This document shows positions 26,040 to 31,506 of a DNA stretch of 64,000 bases, one piece after another. Source of the DNA: Gemmatimonadaceae bacterium. GTDB taxonomy: Bacteria > Gemmatimonadota > Gemmatimonadetes > Gemmatimonadales > Gemmatimonadaceae. The DNA lies in NCBI GenBank assembly GCA_017881465.1, contig JADGQV010000001.1:1-64000 (forward strand), given 5' to 3'. Numbering within the stretch: position 1 is the first letter of the stretch; every line of letters starts with the position of its first letter. A program made the translations under genes and the position numbers. A model generated the notes under the pieces. That model had not been told where the DNA came from. It saw only the letters and a program-made list of their open reading frames with translations, and searched no databases.

Positions 26040-26576
26040 CTAGCTCTCCGCCGGCGTATCCGACACTGGCGTGGCTGCGACGGCGGGGCCGGAAGATCGC
26101 TCTTCCCCCCAAAGGACCCAGGCGAGGAGGAATGCGCCGATGCTGACGGCCATGTCAGCGACGTTGAAGGTCGGCCACCGCAGGTCGCCCACCCCGACAT
26201 CGATGAAGTCCACCACGCCCGTTGCCGACCGAATGCGGTCGATGAGATTGCCGACCGCTCCCCCGCAAACCAGAGCCAGGGCTAGCGTGCGCAGGAAATC
26301 TCGCTGCCGCGTGGCCTGGTACAGCCGTCCTAAAATCACGAGCGCCCCCGTCGTCAGCGCCATGAATATCCACCGCGAGTAGACGCCCAGGTTCAGCCCG
26401 AACGCGGCGCCCGGATTGTAGACGAGCGTCAGCCGGAGATGATTGGCGAGGATCTCGTGGGGGATATGCTGCGGCGACAACGTCGACGCGGCGATCAGCT
26501 TGGTCACCAGATCGACCGCCACCACCGTGATCAGCGTGCCCCAGAAGAGGGGCGGATTAGGCTTGGCGCTTTCCAT
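26040..26576 (-). CDS. lspA: Lipoprotein signal peptidase LspA
   Basis: LTLVYNPGAAFG, GGAVGNLIDRI, VVDFIDV...TFNVADMAVSIG; start trimmed to MESAKPNPP. Confidence 0.93.
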   Translation of the reverse strand: MESAKPNPPLFWGTLITVVAVDLVTKLIAASTLSPQHIPHEILANHLRLTLVYNPGAAFGLNLGVYSRWIFMALTTGALVILGRLYQATRQRDFLRTLALALVCGGAVGNLIDRIRSATGVVDFIDVGVGDLRWPTFNVADMAVSIGAFLLAWVLWGEERSSGPAVAATPVSDTPAES

Positions 26577-26979
26577 CTTCTTCGCGCTGCTTGCACTCGA
26601 TGCAATACCTGGCGTGCGGAAGCGCGTCGAGACGCTCGAAGCTGATCTCACGCCCGCAGTTGTGACACTTGCCGAACTGCTCGGGATTGCGATAGAGCCG
26701 GCGGAGCGCTTCGTCGATGTGCCAGAGGAAACGGCCTTCCTGGCTCGCGAACAGAAATGCCTTTTCGCGCTCCATTGCGTCGGTGCCCTGATCGGCCATG
26801 TGGAAGGAATATGCGCTCAGATCGCCGTCCGCGCTCTGCGGCGTCGATCCGAAAGTCTCGTCGTAGTGCCCCAGCTCCTTCAAGACGCGCTTCCGCTCTT
26901 CGAGCAGTCGCTTCTCGAAATGCTGAAGGCTCTTCTTTGGCATCGCCTTCGGTTTCTTGCTGCTGGCTGCTGTTGCCAT
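26557..26979 (-). CDS. DksA/TraR-type zinc finger protein
   Basis: C-terminal CHNCGREISFERLDALPHARYCIECK zinc finger. Confidence 0.9.
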   Translation of the reverse strand: MATAASSKKPKAMPKKSLQHFEKRLLEERKRVLKELGHYDETFGSTPQSADGDLSAYSFHMADQGTDAMEREKAFLFASQEGRFLWHIDEALRRLYRNPEQFGKCHNCGREISFERLDALPHARYCIECKQREEDGKRQA

Positions 26980-26981
26980 TT

Positions 26982-29900
26982 CTAACCTACCCTCTCCAAG
27001 GCGACTTCAACGCTCTGCCCATCAAGGTCGAACGCATGCGTCGCGTGTGTTCCGTCGATTTTCTCGCCCACAGAGACCTTCAGGGCGAGTACTTCATCGG
27101 CGATCCATTTCTGGAAGGCCTTCATCGCTTCCTGAATCTCCGCACCACCCGCAACGAAGAGCGTGATGCGATCGCTTACGGCGAAACCCAATTCTTTCCT
27201 CAACCGCTGAACGCGGCTCACCACCTCGCGCGCGAGTCCTTCGAGGCGCAGCTCGCGCGTTACAACCGAATCGAGCGCGGCAAAATAGCCGCCTTCCTCC
27301 TTTACCACCAAATCCCCGGAAGCGGTCCGCACGACCGTCAGATCCTCGGGGCTCAGCTCCCGCGACTCATTTCCGACCGAAATGTAAAGCGGCTTCCCCG
27401 CCTCGAACTCCCTCAGTGCCTCGCTGCTCAGTGCCTGGACCGCCTCGGCGGCAAGGGGGGTATCCTTGCTGAATTTCTTACCCAGCGATCTGAAATTCGG
27501 CCGAGCTTTTAAAGTTACTAGATCGTCGGCGCTGGAGATGAATTCGACCTTTTTTATGTTGAGCTCGGCCGCCAAGAGGGGGCTCAGCTCTGCCAACATC
27601 CCCTCTGCGCGCATCTGGGCTCCCTTCGAAACGGCCCCGTGAATCGGCACGACGCACACCAGCCGGGCCAAGGGTTGACGCACCTTGACGCCGGCTTCCT
27701 CGCGGGCGGCACGGCCCAGCGTAGCGAGGGTCCGAATGTGCCCCATCGGACGCTCCAGATCGACATCGATCGCCCCCGCTCCGGAGGCCCCACGCGTGAA
27801 CGGCGCCAGATGCACTGAGCCGCCCGTGAGCTCGCGATGGACCCAGTCGGTGATGAACGGAGCGAACGGTGCGAGCAGCCGGCACGTGACCGCGAGGATC
27901 TCGTGCAGCGTCGCGAACGCGGCGCGGTTGTCCGCGGCATCGACGTCGTAGAAGCGATGGCGGCTCTGGCGCACGTACCACTTCGACACGTCCTCGTCGA
28001 AGAAAGTCATCACCGCCTTGGCGGCGTTGGTGGCCTCGTAGCGGCCCAGCAGCTCGTCGGCTTCGCGCTCGACACTGGCAAGCCGCGACAGAACCCATCT
28101 GTCCAGCAGCGGACGATCCTGTGGCGCCGGATCCTTGTCGGATGGCGACCAGCCGAAGTTCGCGTACTCCGCAAAGATGCCGGTATAGACATTCTTGAAC
28201 GTGAGCAGGAAGCGCCCCGCGGTGTCGCGGATGCCCGCCTCGTCGAAGCGGCGCGGCGTCCAGAGCTGGCTCGAGGTCGTGAGGAAGAGCCGAACCGCGT
28301 CGGCACCGTAGCGCGGAATCACGGACGCGGGATCGATGATGTTCCCGAGCCGCTTCGACATTTTCTGTCCCTCGGCGTCGAGAACTAGATCGTTGACGAC
28401 GACGGCGCGGTACGGCGCGGTGTCGCCGACGACCGGTGAATGCGCCTCGTGGGCGAGCAGGTTGTTCGGCAGCGCATCACCGAGTCCGGTGGCGATCGCG
28501 AGCAAAGAATAGAACCATCCGCGCGTCTGGTCGATTCCCTCGGCGATGAAATCCGCGGGGTAGTAGCGCTCGAACTTGTCGCGGTTCTCGAACGGGAAAT
28601 GCCACTGCGCGAATGGCATCGACCCGGAATCGAACCAGGCGTCGATCACCTCGGGCGTGCGCGTCATCGTGCCGCCGCATTTGCACTGCCAGGTGTAGCG
28701 ATCGATGAACGGCTTGTGGGGGTCGAAGTTGGCGGCGAGCGCGACACCGGACCTCTCCGACAGCTCCGCGTATCCGCCGATGGCTTCCGCGTGCGAGTCG
28801 TCCCTATCGCAGACCCAGATCGGAAGCGGAGTGCCCCAGTAGCGGTCGCGCGAAACCGCCCAATCGATGTTGTTGGTCAGCCACTCCCCGAAGCGACCAG
28901 CTCCGGTTTCGGCCGGATGCCAGTCGACGCGCGAGTTGCGCACCAGCATCGCGTCCTTGAACTCGGTCGTGCGGATGAACCAGGAGGTGCGAGCGTAATA
29001 GAGCAGGGGCGTCTCGCAGCGCCAGCAATGCGGGTATGCGTGCTCGAACAGCGTCGATTTCCAGAGCACCCCGCGCCGCTTCAGCTCTTCGAGAATGACG
29101 GCGTCCGCGTCCTTTACGAACATTCCGCCCACGAGCGGCATGTCGGCCGGGAACTCGCCGCGGAGATTTACGGGCTGGAGGAACGCGAGTCCGTTGCGCT
29201 GCCCCGCCGCGTAATCGTCGGCGCCGAACGCGGGGGCCATGTGCACGACGCCGGTTCCTTCGTCGGCGGAGACGAAAGACTCGCCAACGATTATTTCGTG
29301 CTTGCCTTCCTTGTACTCCACCCAATCGAGCGGCCGCTTGTAGCGTTTCCCGACGAGATCGCTGCCACGGACGGAGCTCACCGTCTCCCAGCGGCCGGCG
29401 AAATCGTCACCCAGAACGGCGGGTGTGCGAGAGAGAGCGAGGATGATCGTCTCGTCCGTTTCAGATTTTCTTTTCCGCAACTCGACGTACTCGAGCGCCG
29501 GGTTCACCGCGAGCGCGACGTTCGAGACGAGCGTCCATGGGGTCGTCGTCCAGACCAGGATGCGCCGCCGCGTCTTCGCACCCTTGTCCTCAACAAGATC
29601 GAGCGCGACATAGACGCTCGGATCCTTCACATCCTTGTAACCCTGCGCGACTTCGTGGCTCGAGAGAGTCGTCCCGCAGCGAGCGCAGTACGGCAGGACC
29701 TTGTGGCCGCGGTACAGGCGTCCGCCACGGAACATCGTGGCGAGCGCCCACCAGACGCTCTCGATGTAATTATTGGAGTAGGTGACGTACGGATCGCTGT
29801 AGTCGAGCCAGTACCCGATCCGCTCGCTCAGCTCTTCCCAGTCAGTTCGGTAGCGCCAAACGCTCTCACGGCACATCTCGTTGAACCGCTCGACGCCGAT

Positions 29901-30299
29901 CTTCTCGATCTGCTCCTTCGCCGTCCGAATGCCGAAGTCCTTCTCGATTCTCTTCTCGACTTCGATCTCGACCGGCAGACCGTGCGTATCCCAGCCCGCT
30001 TTGCGCGCGACGTGATTGCCGCGCATCGCGCGGTAGCGGCAGAAGAGATCCTTCACCGTTCGCGAGAACACGTGGTGGATGCCGGGCCGGCCGTTGGCGG
30101 TGGGCGGGCCTTCGAAGAAGACGAACTCGGGCTTCCCCTCCGCCTGGGCGAGGGTCTGCTGGAAAAGATTTTCCTCTTTCCAGCGAGCGAGCATTTCCTT
30201 CTCAAGTTCGTCGGGCGAGCGATCGGTCGGCAGCAAGCGGAAGCGTCTGCCCTTCTCGTCTCCCCCCGCCGCGGCCGGCACGGGGCGGACCACGGTCAT
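26982..30299 (-). CDS. ileS: Isoleucyl-tRNA synthetase, IleRS2-like (1105 aa) with GIHH in place of HxGH
   Basis: PPTANGRPGIHHVFSRTVKDLFCRYRAMRG, KAGWDTHGLPVEIEVEK, KMSKRLGNIIDP. Confidence 0.96.
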   Translation of the reverse strand: MTVVRPVPAAAGGDEKGRRFRLLPTDRSPDELEKEMLARWKEENLFQQTLAQAEGKPEFVFFEGPPTANGRPGIHHVFSRTVKDLFCRYRAMRGNHVARKAGWDTHGLPVEIEVEKRIEKDFGIRTAKEQIEKIGVERFNEMCRESVWRYRTDWEELSERIGYWLDYSDPYVTYSNNYIESVWWALATMFRGGRLYRGHKVLPYCARCGTTLSSHEVAQGYKDVKDPSVYVALDLVEDKGAKTRRRILVWTTTPWTLVSNVALAVNPALEYVELRKRKSETDETIILALSRTPAVLGDDFAGRWETVSSVRGSDLVGKRYKRPLDWVEYKEGKHEIIVGESFVSADEGTGVVHMAPAFGADDYAAGQRNGLAFLQPVNLRGEFPADMPLVGGMFVKDADAVILEELKRRGVLWKSTLFEHAYPHCWRCETPLLYYARTSWFIRTTEFKDAMLVRNSRVDWHPAETGAGRFGEWLTNNIDWAVSRDRYWGTPLPIWVCDRDDSHAEAIGGYAELSERSGVALAANFDPHKPFIDRYTWQCKCGGTMTRTPEVIDAWFDSGSMPFAQWHFPFENRDKFERYYPADFIAEGIDQTRGWFYSLLAIATGLGDALPNNLLAHEAHSPVVGDTAPYRAVVVNDLVLDAEGQKMSKRLGNIIDPASVIPRYGADAVRLFLTTSSQLWTPRRFDEAGIRDTAGRFLLTFKNVYTGIFAEYANFGWSPSDKDPAPQDRPLLDRWVLSRLASVEREADELLGRYEATNAAKAVMTFFDEDVSKWYVRQSRHRFYDVDAADNRAAFATLHEILAVTCRLLAPFAPFITDWVHRELTGGSVHLAPFTRGASGAGAIDVDLERPMGHIRTLATLGRAAREEAGVKVRQPLARLVCVVPIHGAVSKGAQMRAEGMLAELSPLLAAELNIKKVEFISSADDLVTLKARPNFRSLGKKFSKDTPLAAEAVQALSSEALREFEAGKPLYISVGNESRELSPEDLTVVRTASGDLVVKEEGGYFAALDSVVTRELRLEGLAREVVSRVQRLRKELGFAVSDRITLFVAGGAEIQEAMKAFQKWIADEVLALKVSVGEKIDGTHATHAFDLDGQSVEVALERVG

Positions 30300-30817
30300 T
30301 CTCGGTTCGATCCGGAGGAGTTGGAGCCCGCGCCTCTGAGAGTGCTCGCCACAACCTGGGAATCCGAAGCTTCGACTTCGGACAGCTGACGCGCGATCAG
30401 GGTCCGCATCTGCGCCAGATACGTGCGCCGCGAGCGATCGAGATTGTCCAGCTCTTGCTCCATTCGCCGCACGTCGGACTTGGCGGACTCGATGATCCGC
30501 TCGCCCTCCGCCTGCGCCTCGCGCAGAACGAGCTGCGCCTCGCGCTCCGCCTGCTCGCGAACCTCGCCGCGAAGCTGCTGCGCCGCGATGAGCGCATCGT
30601 TCAGCGCCTTGTCGCGCTCACGGAACGCGCGGAGCTGCTCGTGAAAGCTCCTGGCCTTGGAGTCGAGGTCCTGATTGATGCGCGTGAGCCGCTCCATCTC
30701 CTCGGCGACCTGATCCCTGAACTGATCGACGCGCGCGCGGTTGTAGCCGCGCAGCGCCCGGCCGAAGTCGTAGCGCCGCACGTCCAGTGGTGTAAGATGA
30801 AATGACTCGTCGATCAT
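30296..30817 (-). CDS. DivIVA domain protein
   Basis: LTPLDVRRYDFGRALRGYNRARVDQFRDQVAEEMERL followed by coiled coil. Confidence 0.9.
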   Translation of the reverse strand: MIDESFHLTPLDVRRYDFGRALRGYNRARVDQFRDQVAEEMERLTRINQDLDSKARSFHEQLRAFRERDKALNDALIAAQQLRGEVREQAEREAQLVLREAQAEGERIIESAKSDVRRMEQELDNLDRSRRTYLAQMRTLIARQLSEVEASDSQVVASTLRGAGSNSSGSNRE

Positions 30818-31506
30818 TTATCCCTCGCTCCGAAGAGGGTGGTCCCGACCCGCACCAGAGTCGCGCCTTCTTCTACGGCAATCTCGTAATCGTTCGACAT
30901 TCCCATCGACAGCTCCCCGGCCGGGTGCCCAGCCGCGATCAGTTCTTCGCGCCCTTCGCGAGCCTCCGCGAAGGTGCGATGGAGCTGCGACTCCGTTGCG
31001 CTAAAGCTAGCCATTGTCATCACTCCCCGAACCCGGATGCCCGATAGCGAAACGAGTCGCTCGGCTTCCGGCAGAAGATCGGAGAGAGTGTATCCGCCCT
31101 TCGAGGCCTCTCCCGAAAGATTCAGCTCGATCAACACGTCCATCGCCCGGCCGCGCACGATCCCGAATTCAGACACAGCGTCGGCGAGCCGCGGGCTGTC
31201 GAGCGAATGCAGCAACACGAACTGCTCCAGCGCCTTCACCTTGTTCCGCTGAAGATGCCCGATGAGATGCCAGCGCACCGGCACCTCGACCGCGGCCATC
31301 TTCTTCAACGCTTCCTGAACCTTGTTCTCGCCGACGTCGTGCAGGCCCGCTTCATACGCCGCCCGTGCGGCCTCGGGCCCGTGCGTCTTGGTGACCGCGA
31401 CGATCGTGACCTGCTGCCCGTGACCACCCCGCGCTGCCGCCGCGGCGATCCTGGCTCGAACATCGGCGAGGCGCTCAGCCAGGCCTGGAAAAGCCATAAC
31501 TGTCAA
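30814..31506 (-). CDS. YggS/PROSC family PLP-binding protein
   Basis: VAVTKTHGPEAARAAYEAGLHDVGENKVQEALKK, WHLIGHLQRNK, LSMGMSNDYEIAVEEGATLVRVGTTLFG. Confidence 0.93.
   Translation of the reverse strand: MTVMAFPGLAERLADVRARIAAAAARGGHGQQVTIVAVTKTHGPEAARAAYEAGLHDVGENKVQEALKKMAAVEVPVRWHLIGHLQRNKVKALEQFVLLHSLDSPRLADAVSEFGIVRGRAMDVLIELNLSGEASKGGYTLSDLLPEAERLVSLSGIRVRGVMTMASFSATESQLHRTFAEAREGREELIAAGHPAGELSMGMSNDYEIAVEEGATLVRVGTTLFGARDK

Follow-up and report, generated by a model that had tools for sequence, protein, structure and literature searches.

A swapped GIHH signature in the type 2 isoleucyl-tRNA synthetase of a Gemmatimonadaceae bacterium: distribution in Gemmatimonadota and predicted mupirocin resistance

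The 64,000-nucleotide stretch of DNA analysed here (the window) encodes a type 2 isoleucyl-tRNA synthetase (IleRS2) in which the class I signature HxGH is replaced by GIHH, the residues at positions 1 and 3 being exchanged. The swap is the norm of Gemmatimonadota and no peculiarity of the window's genome, and the enzyme is strongly predicted, by analogy with characterized IleRS2, to be highly resistant to mupirocin. We hold with high confidence the explanation as a whole, in which a sole GIHH IleRS2 would rely on His75 for catalysis, bind mupirocin in the mM range and carry an inherited motif. A 2023 paper (PMC10485003) already described the motif, what it does and how the structure accounts for it; the protein is a typical member of the published G/AXHH IleRS2 class, and the finding is correct but ordinary. 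A full-text literature search for GXHH returned Brkic et al. 2023 (PMC10485003) alone among the matches listed, and no paper tying Gemmatimonadota to the swapped motif came up in the literature search. The additions are a phylum-scale count and a handful of replacements, which extend the published survey of 379 sequences (PMC10485003).

The swapped signature

The ileS gene is an intact frame of 1105 codons from ATG to stop (Table 1). Residues G73, I74, H75 and H76 are encoded by GGC ATC CAC CAC on the minus strand (30083-30072), exactly as the preliminary description had read the DNA, and the flanking residues are EGPPTANGRP-GIHH-VFSRTVKDLF. The replacement of HxGH by a swapped motif, also claimed there, was borne out by alignment. 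GIHH falls on HxGH without gaps in an alignment of 46 sequences, and the block was matched to IleRS1 and IleRS2 of P. megaterium, to the IleRS of T. thermophilus, S. aureus and E. coli, and to the valyl-tRNA synthetase (ValRS) of the same genome. The aligned signature has the G/AXHH pattern, with Gly or Ala at position 1 and His at positions 3 and 4. Since the genome's own ValRS carries the canonical HMGH, there is no general oddity at the signature in this genome.

Table 1. Features of the ileS locus in the window.
Feature	Coordinates	Strand	Details and evidence
ileS, isoleucyl-tRNA synthetase type 2 (P0001)	26982..30299	minus	1105 aa; TIGR00392, PDB matches, tree
Class I signature motif, swapped GIHH (G73-I74-H75-H76) for HxGH	30072..30083	minus	sequence and alignment
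Second signature motif KMSKR	28350..28364	minus	residues 646-650; sequence, variant census
tRNA-synt_1 catalytic/editing region	28266..30194	minus	residues 36-678; Pfam PF00133, 391.7 bits
Anticodon-binding domain	27669..28103	minus	residues 733-877; Pfam PF08264, 91.2 bits
DUF5915 C-terminal domain	26988..27572	minus	residues 910-1104; Pfam PF19302, 174 bits
DivIVA-like gene, upstream neighbour	30296..30817	minus	overlaps ileS by 4 bases; Pfam PF05103
YggS-like PLP protein (Ala_racemase_N), upstream neighbour	30814..31506	minus	Pfam PF01168
DksA/TraR zinc-finger protein, downstream neighbour	26557..26979	minus	Pfam PF01258
lspA, signal peptidase II, downstream neighbour	26040..26651	minus	Pfam PF01252

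The GIHH residues are identical in the five genus relatives that were read (L139-L143), and the synonymous codons differ among them (GGC/GGA, ATC/ATT, CAC/CAT). The same residues with different codons exclude an error and indicate that the motif is under purifying selection. A sequencing or assembly error, or a pseudogene, is also opposed by the intact 1105-aa frame and by the presence of the swap throughout the phylum; the likelihood of such an origin is negligible.

The usual form of the second signature motif is KMSKS. Within the window's genus its last residue is Ser, Arg or His while GIHH is constant (window 28350-28364, L139-L143).

Assignment to type 2 IleRS

The enzyme is a type 2 IleRS, because phylogeny, the C-terminal domain and structure comparisons all agree. 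Identity as an isoleucyl-tRNA synthetase is given by the NCBIfam ileS model TIGR00392 (849.9 bits against a cut-off of 621.4), and a WTTTPWT editing-site stretch is located at residue 250 inside the tRNA-synt_1 region. The top PDB sequence matches are four entries of P. megaterium IleRS2, with 852-860 bits versus 341-349 bits to IleRS1 of the same organism. The best of them, 8c8w (859.9 bits), is a laboratory mutant in which HVGH was changed to GVHH. The mirror pattern was obtained with a control, a true IleRS1 of Gemmatimonadota (L145), which scored 876 bits to IleRS1 and 354 to IleRS2. The P. megaterium IleRS2 and its GVHH mutant (8c8u, 8c8v, 8c8w) are the closest solved structures, the P. 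megaterium enzyme being ~40% identical to the window's IleRS from end to end, the C-terminal tRNA-binding domain included. The AF2 model, ligand-free and of middling confidence (pLDDT 73.5, pTM 0.62), also returned P. megaterium IleRS2 entries at Foldseek ranks 1-4; in it GIHH opens the helix 74-92, in agreement with published descriptions of the alpha-1 tip.

The IleRS2 proteins scanned, including MupA and a second IleRS from Gemmatimonadota, contained DUF5915. The Pfam scan revealed no zf-FPG_IleRS zinc finger in the window's enzyme, whereas E. coli IleRS1 and L145 contain the zinc finger at the C-terminus and lack DUF5915. IleRS1 enzymes (E. coli, S. aureus, P. megaterium) share the reaction and the class I fold with it; however, every natural IleRS1 seen has retained the His of position 1 and the Gly of position 3, which are exchanged here. 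In a maximum likelihood tree of the 46 sequences, built with the motif columns left out, IleRS1 formed a separate clade with support of 100 and the window's sequence was placed inside IleRS2 with those from Gemmatimonadota. Forcing it into IleRS1 was 83 log-likelihood units worse and was rejected (p-AU 4.6e-5). An IleRS1 identity is ruled out by the noncanonical signature, the missing zinc finger and the tree placement. The preliminary description had judged that the rest of the protein fits IleRS2 and had proposed phylogenetic placement as a check; the tree, DUF5915 and the structure comparisons uphold that judgement.

Among known systems, the swapped IleRS2 of S. griseus and D. radiodurans are alike in IleRS2 architecture and in the exchange of positions 1 and 3. 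The motif of D. radiodurans is ALHH rather than GIHH; the window's IleRS has KMSKR in place of KMSKS and comes from an uncultured member of Gemmatimonadota. Wild-type P. megaterium IleRS2 has the canonical HVGH and a micromolar Ki for mupirocin, whereas the swap described here is natural. MupA, the IleRS2 of staphylococcal plasmids, has DUF5915 as well and is 37% identical; it was acquired as an additional copy and has the canonical HTGH, in contrast to the sole chromosomal, swapped copy in this genome. Identity of the window's enzyme as MupA was rejected, the score in the NCBIfam MupA exception model being 775.7 bits, below the cut-off of 1900.

Gene copy number and genomic context

The gene lies in a same-strand run of housekeeping genes for YggS-like, DivIVA-like, IleRS, DksA/TraR-like, LspA, RluD-like and CheW proteins. 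In E. coli no gene separates ileS from lspA; in the window they are separated by one small DksA/TraR-like gene. The lspA reading frame as listed overlaps the dksA-like gene, and the true start of lspA is probably further in. No T-box or riboswitch was found ahead of ileS, and the Rfam matches in the whole window were three tRNAs only.

The check for a second ileS, proposed in the preliminary description, found one ileS only in the assembly (2.58 Mb, 198 contigs, 93.4% complete). The weaker matches in the genome were one ValRS-like frame (KMSKS, HMGH) and frames whose scores and lengths point to other class I synthetases. In all probability the gene encodes the one isoleucyl-tRNA synthetase of this soil-type, Gemmatimonadaceae-like member of Gemmatimonadota, an ordinary housekeeping enzyme. 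Plasmid-borne IleRS2 genes do exist, and the gene could on that ground be read as a dedicated resistance copy beside a sensitive housekeeping ileS, in the manner of mupA. This reading is very improbable: a single ileS was found in the 93.4%-complete assembly, it is close to lspA amid housekeeping genes, the IleRS2 genes found on plasmids are all below 60% identical to it, and MupA itself carries the canonical HTGH.

Distribution of the swap

The closest named relatives are metagenome-assembled genomes of Gemmatimonadaceae and Gemmatimonadetes. A strict DNA pattern for the swap was matched in 350 of 395 Gemmatimonadota genomes and the canonical pattern in 6. The first 150 Gemmatimonadota genomes were analysed in detail, and the motif was readable in 145; the others comprised one unread genome of a GVHH genus, one with an IleRS truncated ahead of the motif and three that gave no IleRS. 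The swap was present in 141 of the 145, 131 by the swap pattern and ten read directly as GVHH or GLHH. In two genera the genomes without a match to the strict pattern proved to have GVHH or GLHH with NA instead of NG beside the motif. The non-swapped remainder consisted of three HYGH enzymes of another IleRS lineage and one IleRS1.

Since the swap is near fixation in the phylum, it is an old, vertically kept trait with nothing special to the window's genome, and GIHH is most likely a legacy of an ancestor of the phylum and not the product of recent selection in this genome. The phylum-wide count was computed in the present analysis; ancestry and cause we infer. On balance we favour the further proposal that the swapped enzyme has been the default IleRS of Gemmatimonadota since their early history and that the rare HYGH-type and IleRS1 enzymes came in afterwards as substitutes. 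On this proposal the swap would be a second, durable way of achieving catalysis that predates any clinical or recent selection by mupirocin. The results confirm in a poorly studied phylum that a highly conserved catalytic motif can be rearranged and stably inherited.

The swap is found too in Actinomycetota and in some relatives from Bacillota, in line with the published survey. A Bacillota sample of one group (150 genomes) gave 98 pattern matches. The swap was present in 11 of the 31 motifs in an IleRS2 context. A swapped IleRS1 was sought in the same sample and none was found, all 67 motifs in an IleRS1 context being canonical, in agreement with PMC10485003. The last residue of KMSKR proved to have no specific link with the swap, as KMSKS, KMSKR, KMSKH and KMSKT all accompany the swap; KMSKH was found also with canonical clostridial enzymes.

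The 46-sequence tree needs only three changes of the motif. This economy, together with near-fixation in the phylum, implies long vertical retention and suits the alternative that the swap is an old neutral or structural option of IleRS2, with resistance a by-product rather than the selective cause here; the enzyme itself would work as in the main explanation. That a few Gemmatimonadota have exchanged the swapped enzyme for a non-swapped HYGH-type or IleRS1 points the same way. However, the authors of PMC10485003 favour antibiotic selection, and deep retention could itself mirror continued exposure in soil to mupirocin-like compounds. We regard the chances of the neutral origin as evenly balanced.

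Mupirocin resistance and mechanism

The preliminary description stated that a subset of IleRS2 with the swap is very strongly resistant to mupirocin, and the published data agree. The G/AXHH swap is present in many IleRS2, and mutagenesis and crystallography linked it to mM Ki values for mupirocin (Brkic et al. 2023, Nat Commun 14:5498, PMC10485003). The natural G/AXHH enzymes of D. radiodurans and S. griseus combine near-normal activation of isoleucine with Ki values in the mM range, and the motif swap alters Ki by ~175 to 820-fold (Table 1 of PMC10485003). The Ki of D. radiodurans IleRS2 was 6.6 mM with the natural ALHH and 8.1 uM after mutation to HVGH, while conversion to GVHH raised the Ki of the T. 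thermophilus enzyme from 0.20 to 35 uM and that of the P. megaterium enzyme from 1.08 to 460 uM (PMC10485003). The His at position 3 of IleRS2 fits beside the adenine, can substitute for the His at position 1 and clashes with mupirocin; the same swap in IleRS1 abolishes activity (PMC10485003).

By analogy, His75 at the third position would do in the transition state what the first His normally does, and the bulk of His75 would clash with bound mupirocin, so that the enzyme would be expected to work normally and to bind mupirocin only at mM levels. Both catalysis by His75 and an mM Ki, the latter predicted to be shared with the known G/AXHH enzymes via the same His clash, are strongly suggested by the enzymes of D. 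radiodurans, T. thermophilus, P. megaterium and S. griseus. For Gemmatimonadota in general the prediction is accordingly an intrinsic, target-level insensitivity to mupirocin, which could matter for their isolation on mupirocin-containing media.

Asn70 and Phe586 are named as mupirocin contacts of IleRS1 (PMC10485003); the window's enzyme has Ser and Leu, respectively, at the aligned positions. Other residues of the pocket could conceivably compensate and leave a swapped enzyme without strong resistance. The pocket has Leu at the His582 position, unlike PmIleRS2, and the fifth residue of KMSKS is Arg. Canonical TtIleRS2 shares the Leu, and no other IleRS2 tested had so low a Ki (0.20 uM; PMC10485003). 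Such compensation is nevertheless improbable since in three IleRS2 backgrounds, TtIleRS2 included, the motif shifts Ki in the same direction by ~175 to 820-fold (PMC10485003).

Unusual IleRS sequences

Several exceptions were encountered during the survey. In two Gemmatimonadota genomes (G311 and G379; L158, L159, L172) the only IleRS found is very divergent, with GPITANNPMGVHH and KFSKT. A member of the same genus (G032, L105) keeps an ordinary GIHH enzyme, suggesting that the divergent IleRS is a replacement. Genome G006 has two full-length IleRS genes (L110, L134), one a GLHH type 2 and the other HYGH-type, and in three further genomes (G139, G034, G095) an HYGH-type enzyme was present and the swapped motif gave no match. 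The IleRS1 of G096 (L117) reads HLGT, the fourth His being changed to Thr (codon ACG), with AMHKS replacing KMSKS; its relatives G335 and G177 have HLGH.

A type 2 ileS with the swapped GTHH and KMSKH was found on the linear plasmid NZ_CP095404.2 of Rhodococcus opacus strain 9 (L173, 1471-4626; L179, 20674-23829). Its neighbours are condensation-domain, AMP-binding, carrier-protein and LLM-oxidoreductase genes, and it could be the self-resistance gene of a biosynthetic cluster.
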